Shown here: positions 16,127 through 26,790 of the stretch, in pieces
How the letters are laid out: the number at the start of each line of letters is the position of its first letter
Numbering within the stretch: the first letter of the stretch is position 1
Source: Acidobacteriota bacterium
GTDB lineage: Bacteria > Acidobacteriota > Terriglobia > Bryobacterales > Bryobacteraceae
Assembly (NCBI GenBank): GCA_025352795.1
Contig: JANXSF010000102.1
Coordinates: 124,001-188,000 of the forward strand
Direction: 5' to 3'
Length of the DNA stretch: 64,000 bases
Notes under the pieces: model-generated
What the model was told of the DNA's origin: nothing
Database searches by the model: none
What the model saw: only the letters and a program-made list of their open reading frames with translations
Program-made: the position numbers and the translations under genes

Positions 16127-16903
16127 TCAAACAATCTTGGCGATGTATCCAGCAGATGGGCTATTACTGGCCACGCCTCCCGGTGCAATGCCCGCGTCGC
16201 AGTAGTACAAATGGCCGCGATGCATACACATGCCGTGGGGATCGGGGTCCGATTTACTGAGAATGATTTTTTCCAGAAGCTCACCAGTTTCAGCGTCCAG
16301 CTTGTGGATCTGCATTTCTGTAGAATGCATGCACCAGATTCTAGCCTTTCCCTTTTCACGAACAAATGCCAGTCCATGGGCACGATCTAGCATCACTGGA
16401 ATCTGGCGAATGATTTTGAAATCGGTTGTATCCACTAACGTTAATTTCTTAAGCGATAAGGATGTGATCCACAACTTGCCTTCAGCAAACTCAAGCCCAT
16501 GCACACCCCCGCCTCCTGGAACCACGTGGCGTTTGATCGTTGAACCAGTTTTGAGATCAGCTTGAATTACTTGACCAGTGGGGGAATCGGTTGCCCTCGC
16601 TGGACGACCAATTGCCTTTCCATTCGATGCCATCCATAAGTAACCTCCGCCAACAGCAATGCCACTGGTATTGGCACATTCCGTATCAACCGAGCGAATC
16701 AACTTGCCGGACCAAGTGACAAGGTGCGCACGATCCGTTGTCTGCTCACCAATCCACAATCCTTCTTTGGTTGATTCAAGCCCGTTGGGGTGTCCGTCGG
16801 GTGATTTGAAAAGCTTGATTACTTTTGCTTTTCTCTCAGGAATGGAAGAGAAGGCGCATTGTGCCGCCAACGAAAATCCAGCAAGGAAAGTACGGCGTCT
16901 CAT
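16127..16903 (-). CDS. Exported beta-propeller protein (SMP-30/glutaminyl-cyclotransferase-like)
   Basis: This 258-residue protein starts with MRRRTFLAGFSLAA, a twin-arginine-type signal. The rest shows repeated blade-like units: HPNGLESTKEGLWIGEQ, TSGIAVGGGYLWMASN, GVHGLEFAEGKLWITS, AHGLAFVREKGKARIW and DPHGMCMHRGHLYYCD. Each has an NG or HG turn and an aromatic strand, as in six-bladed gluconolactonase-like propellers. It may bind or hydrolyse a sugar lactone, but catalytic residues cannot be confirmed. Its ATG overlaps the stop of the hydroxy-acid oxidase gene, so the two are probably made together. Confidence 0.75.
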   Translation of the reverse strand: MRRRTFLAGFSLAAQCAFSSIPERKAKVIKLFKSPDGHPNGLESTKEGLWIGEQTTDRAHLVTWSGKLIRSVDTECANTSGIAVGGGYLWMASNGKAIGRPARATDSPTGQVIQADLKTGSTIKRHVVPGGGGVHGLEFAEGKLWITSLSLKKLTLVDTTDFKIIRQIPVMLDRAHGLAFVREKGKARIWCMHSTEMQIHKLDAETGELLEKIILSKSDPDPHGMCMHRGHLYYCDAGIAPGGVASNSPSAGYIAKIV

Positions 16904-18096
16904 GTGTTATTTTGCTCTCCGCGAATTCTTACCAAATCTCTAGTGATCGATTTCAGATCCGGTGTGCCAGCCAAGCCCATATCCAGGGCGAACTCAGTGC
17001 GCAATAATTCGATGACTCGTTCCACACCAGGCTGACCGAAAGCGGCTAAGCCATACAGATAGGGCCTGGCAATGCAAACAGCTTTTGCACCAAGAGCCAG
17101 GGCCTTCAGAATATCCGTACCGCGACGGATGCCTCCGTCTATCAGCACTGGAATTTTCCCTTGTGCTCCACGCACTACCTCTGGCAGAGCTTCAATCGTG
17201 CCGCCAACGTGATCCAATTGTCGAGCCCCGTGATTCGACACGATCACCGCTGATGCACCATATTCAACCGCGCGGGCAGCGTCTTCCTCAATAAGAATAC
17301 CTTTCAAAATAATAGGCAGCGAAGTAATTTGACGAAGTTCACGCAAGCTGTTCCAGGTAGGAGTGGCGAATGGCCGCGAAGGGGATTCACCAGCACTTTC
17401 CGGATTCTTTGGTGGCGGCAACTTGCCATTGCGATCACGCGGAGGAACCCCGGATTCGCACCAGTTGCGTTCAAACTTGTTATGAATATTTCGTTCCCGA
17501 TGACTGACGTACATAATGTCTGTGGTGAAGCAAATGCCAGCGCAGCCCATGGATTCCATACGTTTCGCGAAGCTACGCATGCTTTGCGTATTGCGCAAAT
17601 CGCCGCCTGTAGTAAGGTGCCACCAGACCTTGGCCGCCTCCCCTTTTTCCAAAGACTTTTCAATACCTCCGTTAGTGATGTGCAGTGCTGAAACCTTGCC
17701 AGCAGCGCGGCTGACAATGTTTTCCCCATCGGCATGGAAACAATTCTTGCCACCAGCAGGGTCTAGCAGAATGGGGAAATCCAACTTTTTACCGAATAGT
17801 TCCAGTGATGTATCAATTTTATGAACGTCAACCAAAGCCTTGGGCCGAATGATAATACGATTGAAACCAGTGCGATTGTCTTTCAGTGAAACTTCGTCTT
17901 CGCTGCCACCTTCCAAATAATCCCAAGCAATAGGATCAAGCTTCGCTTTGGCAAATGGGGCAAAGTCGAAGACATTGGCACAATCTAAAAGATGCGGGTC
18001 GGGTGCGGCAACTTTCGCTTGCTGAGAACGCAGCAACGCGGGAGTACTCCACAGCGCTGCCAATTTTAGAAGTGCGGTCCTTCGGTCCAAATGCAT
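16900..18096 (-). CDS. FMN-dependent alpha-hydroxy-acid oxidase/dehydrogenase with Tat-like signal
   Basis: This is a (S)-2-hydroxy-acid oxidising enzyme of the lactate oxidase/glycolate oxidase/LldD family, which oxidises a hydroxy acid to a keto acid using FMN. The active-site segment SNHGARQLD, with its catalytic His and Arg, is clear, followed by GGIRRGTDILKALALGA and a phosphate-binding region. An N-terminal DRRTALLKLAALW stretch looks like a twin-arginine signal, unusual for a family that is mostly cytosolic or membrane-bound. I start at the ATG at 18096 to keep this signal; ATG 18108 and TTG 18129 are also possible, and none has a good ribosome site. It is divergent from the PLP enzyme at 18121. 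Confidence 0.87.
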   Translation of the reverse strand: MHLDRRTALLKLAALWSTPALLRSQQAKVAAPDPHLLDCANVFDFAPFAKAKLDPIAWDYLEGGSEDEVSLKDNRTGFNRIIIRPKALVDVHKIDTSLELFGKKLDFPILLDPAGGKNCFHADGENIVSRAAGKVSALHITNGGIEKSLEKGEAAKVWWHLTTGGDLRNTQSMRSFAKRMESMGCAGICFTTDIMYVSHRERNIHNKFERNWCESGVPPRDRNGKLPPPKNPESAGESPSRPFATPTWNSLRELRQITSLPIILKGILIEEDAARAVEYGASAVIVSNHGARQLDHVGGTIEALPEVVRGAQGKIPVLIDGGIRRGTDILKALALGAKAVCIARPYLYGLAAFGQPGVERVIELLRTEFALDMGLAGTPDLKSITRDLVRIRGEQNNT

Positions 18097-18120
18097 TGGC
18101 GTGAGCATATCATAGTGGTC

Positions 18121-19296
18121 ATGTCTCAAACACGAAGAACTCTATTGAAAGTGGCGGCAGCTTCGCCCATGGCCGTTGCGGCGGCGAAGCCCCTACCGAA
18201 GGAGATGCAAGTGTATTCCAAACTCGGTGTCAAACCGGTAATCAATGGCATGGGTACAGTAACGGTACTGGGTGGTTCATTAATGCCTGCGGAAGTTTTG
18301 CAGGCAATGGATGAAGCAGCTCGCACATTTATCTTTATCCCTGACTTGCAGCGCAAAGCAGGCGCACACATTGCTGAGCTATTAGGAATTCCAGGAGCCA
18401 TGGTTACTGGTGGTGCAGCATCGGCCATTACGGTGGCGACCGTGGCTTGTCTATGCCGTGGCGATCAGAAAAAGTTGCAACAGTTGCCCGATATTTCCGG
18501 CATGGCCCATGAAGTGATTCAACAGAAGGCGCACCATAGCGGGTATGAACATCAGATCACGCTGACCGGTGCCAAAGTGATTGAAGTGGAAACCGCAGCG
18601 GAACTGGAATCGGCAATTGGGCCGAAGACGGCGATGATGTTTTTTCTGAATAAGCATGAGCCCGATGGAAGGATCAAGCGTGCAGAGTGGTTGCGCATTG
18701 CTAAGAAAAATAACATTCCCACGTTCAACGATGCTGCTGCCGATGTCCCGCCCAAAGAACGGCTGTGGGAAATAGTGAAAGAAGGGTTTGACCTGGTAGC
18801 ATTTTCTGGCGGTAAGGCAATGCTGGGTCCGCAATCGGCAGGGCTTTTGTTGGGTCGTAAAGATTTGATTGATGCCAGCTTTCCGGCAATGAGTCCCAAT
18901 GGCGGAATTGGGCGTGGGATGAAAGTTGCCAAAGAAGAAATTGTTGGGATGGTAGCAGCGTTGGAACGTTTTCTGAAAGCAGATCATGCGGCAGAGGCTC
19001 GCTTGCTTGATAAACGCGTAGCTGAAATGATCCAGGGCGTGGGTGCGGTGAAGGGTGTCAAAACGTCCAAATATGTTCCAGTGATTGCCAATGAATTACC
19101 GCACTTCTTAATGGAGTGGGATGAAAGTTTGGTCGGGTTGACGACACAGCAAATTGTCGAGAAGCTGCAAAAGAACGACCCACCGATTCATGTTTTACCG
19201 GAAGGTCCAGGAAGGATGGTGGTTTCCGTTTGGATGATGACGGGCGAGCAGCATCGAGTGGTTGCCAAGCGCCTGGCGCAGATTTTACGAGGCTAG
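18121..19296 (+). CDS. Tat-exported PLP-dependent enzyme of the SelA/DgaE-like family
   Basis: This 391-residue fold-type I PLP enzyme resembles D-glucosaminate-6-phosphate ammonia-lyase and SelA-like proteins. The Schiff-base lysine is probably Lys232 in an FSGGKAMLGPQSAGLL segment, preceded by an FNDAAADVPP motif. The N-terminus, MSQTRRTLLKVAAASPMAVAA, is a plausible twin-arginine signal, so the folded holoenzyme would be exported. I use the ATG at 18121; an upstream TTG at 18091 would run through the divergent promoter. The substrate is probably an amino sugar acid or similar, inferred from family only. Confidence 0.84.
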   Translation: MSQTRRTLLKVAAASPMAVAAAKPLPKEMQVYSKLGVKPVINGMGTVTVLGGSLMPAEVLQAMDEAARTFIFIPDLQRKAGAHIAELLGIPGAMVTGGAASAITVATVACLCRGDQKKLQQLPDISGMAHEVIQQKAHHSGYEHQITLTGAKVIEVETAAELESAIGPKTAMMFFLNKHEPDGRIKRAEWLRIAKKNNIPTFNDAAADVPPKERLWEIVKEGFDLVAFSGGKAMLGPQSAGLLLGRKDLIDASFPAMSPNGGIGRGMKVAKEEIVGMVAALERFLKADHAAEARLLDKRVAEMIQGVGAVKGVKTSKYVPVIANELPHFLMEWDESLVGLTTQQIVEKLQKNDPPIHVLPEGPGRMVVSVWMMTGEQHRVVAKRLAQILRG

Positions 19297-25692: not shown

Positions 25693-26790
25693 ATGGCAAA
25701 CTGGACACGACGCGACGTTTCACGTGACATTTCTTTGGGACTATTGGCAAGCAGCCTGTGGGCCGCCACGCCTCCACAATTTGTCAAACTCCCCAAGAAG
25801 GTGCGCCTTGTTTTATTGGGTACTTTGGGACATGTAGGTGAAGTATTAAAACCTTTGCCGCAGCTTCCTGAAATTGAAGTGGTGGCATATTGTGAATCTG
25901 ATTCTGTGGAATTGAAGAAGATCCTGAAGAATACAGCATTGACGAAAGCCCACGCTTATACGGACTATCGCAAAATGCTCGACGCGGAGAAGCCCGATAT
26001 TGTGGCCGTCTGCACGTCCAACGGAGATCGCGCGGAAGCTATCCTGGCTTGCTGCGAACGTAAATTACCCTTCATTGCAGAAAAGCCATTTGCTACTTCG
26101 TTGATTGAATATTTAAAAGTGGAAAAGAAAATTGTGGATGCCGGAATTCAGCCTGGAATCCTTCTGCCACTGCGGTTCGATCCACCATACCTGGCCATCC
26201 ATAAAATTGTGCAGAGCGGAGCTATTGGCGAAGTAGCGCAGATCAGCTCACAGAAATCGTACAAGGCCGGGGAGCGCCCTGCGTGGATGCAGAATTACAA
26301 AACTTATGGCGGTACCATCCCCTGGATTGGGATTCACATGATCGACCTGATGCGTTTCACAAGTGGTCGTGAGTTTACGGAAGTTGCATCGTACCAAGCT
26401 CAAGTGGGCGCGCCCGCTTCCATCGGACAAATGGAAAACACTACGGGTTCCATTTTCCGCATGGACAACGGCGGCATTGCATCGCTCCACATGGATTACT
26501 ATCGGCCCGATTCCGCACCGACGCATGGGGATGACCGCATAAGATTGGCAGGGCCTAAGGGAATCGTGGAATATTTGGAAGCTACTGGCGTGACGCTTTT
26601 GGTGGAGGGGCGGAATCAGGAACGGGTGACCGATTTGCCTCGTCAGCAACAGGTGTTTTTGGATTATTTGGATGCTCTCTACAATGGCAAAAAGCCCTTG
26701 ATATCGCGGGATGACATGTTCCGGTCGAATCGTGCGACGTTAGCCGCGCATCAGGCGGCGGTAGAGAAACGGTTTGTGGCCATTCCCTAA
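25693..26790 (+). CDS. Gfo/Idh/MocA oxidoreductase with Tat-like signal
   Basis: This 365-residue oxidoreductase opens with WTRRDVSRDISLGLLASSLWA, a twin-arginine-like signal, so it may act in the periplasm. Next come a Rossmann-like domain (VRLVLLGTLGHVGEVLKPL, variant GxxGxxG) and the FIAEKPFATSLIEYLK motif with the catalytic lysine. The C-terminal domain contains the IPWIGIHMIDLMRF histidine segment. Exported Gfo/Idh enzymes are frequent in Acidobacteria and Planctomycetes. It is divergent from the MFS gene and ends 51 bases before tRNA-Thr. Confidence 0.87.
   Translation: MANWTRRDVSRDISLGLLASSLWAATPPQFVKLPKKVRLVLLGTLGHVGEVLKPLPQLPEIEVVAYCESDSVELKKILKNTALTKAHAYTDYRKMLDAEKPDIVAVCTSNGDRAEAILACCERKLPFIAEKPFATSLIEYLKVEKKIVDAGIQPGILLPLRFDPPYLAIHKIVQSGAIGEVAQISSQKSYKAGERPAWMQNYKTYGGTIPWIGIHMIDLMRFTSGREFTEVASYQAQVGAPASIGQMENTTGSIFRMDNGGIASLHMDYYRPDSAPTHGDDRIRLAGPKGIVEYLEATGVTLLVEGRNQERVTDLPRQQQVFLDYLDALYNGKKPLISRDDMFRSNRATLAAHQAAVEKRFVAIP

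Follow-up and report, generated by a model that had tools for sequence, protein, structure and literature searches.

Enzymes of the FMN-dependent alpha-hydroxy acid oxidase family pass their electrons to O2, cytochrome c or quinone; of ten inactive proteins in one screen of the family, eight were missing one or more of seven conserved residues (PMC8491902). Among PLP enzymes, PvdN and PtaA of Pseudomonas are exported by the Tat pathway to the periplasm, where they take part in the tailoring of pyoverdine (PMC6206403). The open-access literature, in which most subscription journals are not covered, yielded no Tat-exported FMN enzyme with a cytochrome module. We analysed a 64,000-nucleotide stretch of DNA from an Acidobacteriota bacterium of the order Bryobacterales (the window), in which a sequence-only reading had proposed that a hydroxy-acid oxidase, a beta-propeller protein and a divergently encoded SelA/DgaE-like PLP protein are three Tat-exported enzymes of a periplasmic pathway for hydroxy acids or amino sugar acids. 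The conserved unit at this locus is a different one, consisting of the oxidase, the propeller and a tetraheme cytochrome c, and its third partner lies outside the window; a cluster seen in one genome can thus mislead.

All three proposed genes are present where that reading placed them, and Table 1 lists them together with a fourth that it had tentatively grouped with them. The N-termini of the propeller, the FMN oxidase and the SelA/DgaE-like enzyme are MRRRTFLAGFSLAAQCAFSS, MHLDRRTALLKLAALWSTPALL and MSQTRRTLLKVAAASPMAVAAA, respectively. The oxidase gene has a second in-frame ATG a few codons upstream of the start given in the table, and the overlap of its stop codon with the propeller start suggests that the two genes are translationally coupled. 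The divergent start codons of the oxidase and SelA-like genes are separated by ~24 nt, so each promoter probably lies inside the opposite gene; a consensus scan for promoters between these two genes gave nothing above chance. No cytochrome gene adjoins the propeller gene in the window, where the next gene encodes an ABC transporter. The codon-usage gene caller that was used on the loci miscalled some starts, including that of the SelA-like gene in the window, and because its starts are unreliable the N-termini were checked by extension from the conserved core.

Table 1. Positions of the features discussed, in window coordinates
Feature	Position	Strand	Remarks
Five-bladed beta-propeller protein (predicted), 258 aa	16127..16903	-	Tat-type N-terminus; gene 2 of the oxidase-propeller-cytochrome unit
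FMN-dependent alpha-hydroxy-acid oxidase/dehydrogenase family protein, 398 aa from ATG at 18096	16900..18096	-	Tat-type N-terminus
Stop/start overlap of oxidase and propeller genes, 4 nt	16900..16903	-	Read from the sequence
SelA/DgaE-like PLP enzyme, 391 aa	18121..19296	+	Tat-type N-terminus; divergent from the oxidase
Gfo/Idh/MocA-family protein	25693..26790	+	Conserved N-terminal RR; tentatively grouped with the trio by the sequence-only reading

All three window proteins have an RR followed by a hydrophobic stretch, but are these N-termini conserved as signals? Among relatives chosen without reference to RR, the pair stands no more than 60 residues ahead of the conserved core in 38 of 39 oxidases and in all of the 34 propellers and 32 SelA-like proteins, and it is kept in signal regions in which most other positions vary, which argues against chance occurrence. 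The proposal that all three proteins have Tat-like N-termini therefore holds, and predicted Tat export of the FMN- and PLP-dependent enzymes is well supported by this conservation. The rule used here to call a Tat signal (RR plus a hydrophobic stretch) is simple and untrained. It is passed by 7.5% of the other proteins from these loci (43 of 571), and by 37 of 37 oxidases, 33 of 33 propellers and 31 of 31 SelA-like proteins, figures that are partly circular because the start sites in this set were picked by RR. The NCBIfam Tat models match none of the three window proteins at E≤0.1, Pfam TAT_signal matches four of 30 propeller relatives, and no clear AxA cleavage site was seen in the window's oxidase. 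The genome that contains the window encodes a full-length TatC, and some SelA-like relatives have an apparent lipobox cysteine downstream of the hydrophobic stretch, in keeping with export. The Gfo/Idh/MocA protein, which had been suggested to belong to the same theme, also has a conserved RR (14 of 14 sequences), but in several relatives the RR and the domain are separated by only about ten residues, which may not suffice for a functional signal.

We surveyed 120 genomes of the order, with genes scored as linked when they lie within 3.5 kb of one another on the same strand. The oxidase subfamily has 42 copies in 38 of these genomes; a propeller gene is near 24 of the copies, a tetraheme cytochrome gene near 26 and both near 19, and in these 19 loci the order is always oxidase-propeller-cytochrome. 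The cytochrome is encoded in 29 genomes, all 29 of which also encode the oxidase (Fisher p about 3e-20, a value without correction for genome relatedness). Its copies all lie near an oxidase or propeller gene, except that of the window's own genome and a second, partial copy in genome G035, whose other copy is cut by a contig end. In nine genomes the oxidase occurs and the cytochrome does not, so the latter is either dispensable in some genomes or substituted by a different acceptor, and five genomes have the propeller without the oxidase. The same three-gene operon, with its genes touching or overlapping, is also found in two Acidobacteriota from outside the order (G143 and G169). No conserved gene was found upstream of the oxidase across the loci. 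In two genomes of one genus (loci L105 and L107) the operon sits inside a longer conserved gene row (L105:7273-8538, + strand, and the equivalent gene in L107), and in L105 the gene directly upstream of the oxidase codes for a CxxCH-motif protein. The cytochrome relatives share four invariant CxxCH motifs and two further invariant His residues in an HxH motif; scores against the doubled-CXXCH Pfam are 24.5, 27.9 and 35.1 bits (all above the cut-off of 20.6), and a DmsE-family (decaheme-type) model matches 12 of 12 members, with a best value of 6.9e-12, the member shown being below the curated decaheme cut-off.

The cytochrome gene of the window's own genome is on another contig (L144:9656-10219, which is G000:C12:175658-176194), where its neighbours read as flgB, flgC, fliE, fliF and fliG. 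At locus L133, from a near relative, a single row consists of the SelA-like gene, the oxidase gene, an unrelated YVTN-type propeller gene and the cytochrome gene, followed by these flagellar genes; its oxidase is 87% identical to that of the window and its SelA-like protein 79%. Since the cytochrome lies beside the same flagellar genes in this row, a rearrangement in the lineage of the window most likely divided the unit. Both contigs run well beyond these genes, so the split is not a contig-end effect, though misassembly might still account for it. The YVTN-type propeller gene of L133 (L133:9200-10255) is on the opposite (-) strand, at the place where the conserved propeller would be expected.

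The SelA-like gene behaves differently. The sequence-only reading had proposed looking for the trio across Bryobacterales, and one of the 33 closest SelA-like genes is near an oxidase gene, namely the window's own, to which L133 can be added; the trio does not occur at the remaining 32 of these loci in the 120 genomes and is ruled out as a conserved unit. Elsewhere the neighbours of SelA-like genes vary, and the family gives up to 15 matches per genome. SelA/DgaE-like genes are strongly multiplied in some genomes (L003-L031), and the N-termini read there carry RR. The window protein matches PF03841 (33.8 bits, above the cut-off of 22.8), and its PLP-lysine motif GGK232 is invariant in 22 sequences. 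Its scores fall below the curated cut-offs for two specific identities: D-glucosaminate-6-phosphate ammonia lyase (DgaE; 192 bits against a cut-off of 385 for TIGR01437 and 174 against 600 for NF047797) and selenocysteine synthase (SelA; 41 bits for TIGR00474, cut-off 268). The proposed amino sugar acid substrate is tentative, its basis being the distant similarity to DgaE, well below these curated cut-offs. The PLP enzyme is probably exported too, but it is a member of a distinct, multi-copy family and a lineage-specific neighbour of the oxidase.

What might the oxidase act upon? It matches PF01070 over the whole domain (residues 49-390; 335 bits, cut-off 24.9), and its model has the glycolate oxidase fold along its whole length, with 35-38% identity to glycolate oxidases; the closest folds are the human and plant glycolate oxidases, which are true oxidases (Z about 40). 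When the active-site residues of 31 sequences were mapped onto 1GOX (glycolate oxidase numbering), Tyr24, Asp157, Arg164, Lys230, His254 and Arg257 were found in all 31. Tyr129, which we take to be a conserved active-site residue of (S)-2-hydroxy-acid oxidase (EC 1.1.3.15), is replaced by Thr in 28 and Asn in three; the protein is therefore filed as a divergent PF01070 subfamily with no substrate named. Other pocket replacements are Gly for Trp108, Gly for Ala79 and mostly Ala for Gly308. Thr or Asn at position 129 and Gly at 108 and 79 make an ordinary small hydroxy acid an improbable substrate, and the lost aromatic residues suggest one that is larger or more polar; the earlier assignment to hydroxy acids thus stays plausible by family, but for the ordinary small ones it has become less likely. 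A Gly at the Ala79 position lowers reactivity with O2. Scores against the curated NCBIfam models are all below their cut-offs (L-lactate oxidase 168 bits against 645, LldD 168 against 550 and MftD 187 against 471), and identity with flavocytochrome b2 was rejected on a Pfam scan that gave no fused cytochrome b5-type heme domain. The same genome encodes three more FMN oxidases with Tat-like N-termini (L145:7735-8919, - strand; L146:7121-8284, + strand; L147:7196-8377, + strand), which are 38-42% identical to that of the window and have Tyr129 in two cases and Thr in one.

The propeller model (pLDDT 91.9) has about 20-21 strands, which we read as five blades. Glutaminyl cyclases lead its structure comparison (Z 22.7-24.3, the best NHL propeller having 18.8), the best match being 3mbr (VIA Z 24.3, rmsd 2.3 Å over 206 residues), and the predicted structure has the five-bladed glutaminyl-cyclase fold. 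The Pfam families for glutaminyl cyclase (PF05096) and virginiamycin B lyase (PF24684) do not match the window protein at E≤1; among 30 of its relatives PF05096 gives 16 weak matches (best E 0.0015) and PF24684 matches 16 (best 7.9e-7). Sequence-profile similarity to virginiamycin B lyase has an E value of 4e-8, with partial repeat matches to 2z2n. The relatives share an invariant NTSG, three HG motifs and DPDPHG, whose His, Asn and Asp residues suggest a putative ligand or metal site. The earlier description of all three proteins as enzymes is too strong, the propeller being only a possible enzyme. A propeller paralogue without an oxidase (L163:6228-7235, - strand, in G379) adjoins a different protein with two CxxCH motifs.

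The reading that we prefer, with a probability of about 0.6, is that the oxidase and the propeller make up two of the three parts of a conserved periplasmic dehydrogenase module, in which electrons go to the tetraheme cytochrome and the propeller handles the substrate. The data support the genetic linkage and the predicted export signals on which it is built, and since relatives encode the oxidase and propeller with a four-heme cytochrome, an acid-like compound is probably oxidised outside the cytoplasm and its electrons delivered to respiration. As to the substrate, the electron flow and the role of the propeller, we infer the following: The FMN protein would fold round its FMN in the cytoplasm and be exported by Tat. 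It would then draw two electrons from the alpha-carbon of a hydroxy acid, or of a related compound that is probably bulkier or more polar, and hand these over singly to the tetraheme cytochrome. The latter, like c-type cytochromes in general, would leave the cytoplasm unfolded through Sec and would feed the respiratory chain, and the propeller would most likely bind or prepare the substrate, for example by opening or forming a ring. In the window's own genome, the rearrangement would have parted the oxidase and propeller from a cytochrome that is retained elsewhere. Counting against the module are the Thr or Asn in place of Tyr129 in all 31 oxidase sequences, given that the loss of conserved residues marked most inactive proteins in the screen of this family (PMC8491902), the nine genomes with the oxidase but no cytochrome, the five with the propeller but no oxidase, and the unlinked cytochrome of the window's own genome. 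Of the periplasmic pathway originally proposed, the oxidation route gains from the linked tetraheme cytochrome c, whereas a pathway of the trio finds no support, since the SelA-like gene adjoins that of the oxidase in the window and one near relative only.

Could the oxidase be an ordinary exported one, which reduces O2 to H2O2 in the periplasm, next to a cytochrome that removes the peroxide or is a loosely associated neighbour? Its fold is closest to that of true oxidases, and the nine cytochrome-free genomes fit such an enzyme, but in the genomes surveyed the cytochrome family was seen only together with the oxidase, mostly in the same operon, and the Gly at the Ala79 position is that of mandelate dehydrogenase; we consider this explanation unlikely. 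We give similarly low odds to a role in maturation or tailoring, in which the oxidase and propeller would modify a periplasmic peptide or secondary metabolite, much as PvdN and PtaA act on pyoverdine, with the PLP enzyme of the window as a possible further tailoring enzyme. Loss of the aromatic pocket residues, membership in a family that includes the peptide-modifying MftD (187 bits, below the cut-off), the glutaminyl-cyclase fold of the propeller with its distant virginiamycin B lyase similarity, and the existence of Tat-exported PLP tailoring enzymes (PMC6206403) would all suit it. On the other hand, no precursor peptide, NRPS or PKS gene was noticed beside the operon among the neighbours identified (some of the total), and the flanking genes differ between genomes.

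Least likely of all is that the window trio is a real three-protein periplasmic pathway, for a hydroxy acid plus an amino acid or amino sugar acid, that came together recently in this lineage. L133 preserves the divergent SelA-like/oxidase arrangement and a comparably short gap, but between genomes this close a common gene order is expected anyway, and both the other 32 SelA-like loci and the varied neighbours of these genes speak against it. The periplasmic dehydrogenase module has a more ambitious form, namely an undescribed Acidobacteriota respiratory module with a Tat-exported FMN dehydrogenase of remodelled active site, a bulky or peptide-like substrate, a dedicated tetraheme cytochrome c as acceptor and the propeller as a substrate-processing enzyme. 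We regard this form as tentative and rather doubtful, although more probable than any of the three rivals above. Were the module confirmed, a flavin family known mostly from the cytosol, peroxisomes, mitochondria and the inner membrane would have a periplasmic branch with its own multiheme acceptor, and bacteria that are often uncultured would obtain electrons from organic compounds with no need to take these up. With its three genes the operon is small enough to be tested, and the pocket residues of the oxidase yield a substrate prediction.

How, then, does the unit compare with known systems? The oxidase has the fold of glycolate oxidase, lactate oxidase and mandelate dehydrogenase and the six residues found in 31 of 31 sequences, but differs from them in its own Tat-type signal, in its replaced Tyr129, Trp108 and Ala79, and in an operon that also encodes a propeller and, as a protein of its own, a tetraheme cytochrome c; mandelate dehydrogenase, too, has Gly at the Ala79 position, and its G81A mutant is in the PDB. 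In the proposed model, electrons would pass from an FMN dehydrogenase domain to heme as in flavocytochrome b2 (L-lactate:cytochrome c oxidoreductase), which has a fused b5-type heme domain, whereas here the hemes sit on a protein of their own, a tetraheme c-type cytochrome. That cytochrome shares paired CxxCH motifs with the doubled-CXXCH and DmsE-MtrA-type multiheme cytochromes c, but differs from them in having only four hemes and an N-terminal region without CxxCH. The propeller shares its predicted fold with glutaminyl cyclases of the papaya/bacterial type and sequence-profile similarity with virginiamycin B lyase propellers, and differs from these in a low identity of 14-18% and in its own pattern of NTSG, three HG motifs and DPDPHG. 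Finally, PvdN and PtaA are a precedent for Tat export of a folded PLP enzyme (PMC6206403), but they are pyoverdine tailoring enzymes, whereas the PLP protein of the window belongs to the SelA/DgaE branch.
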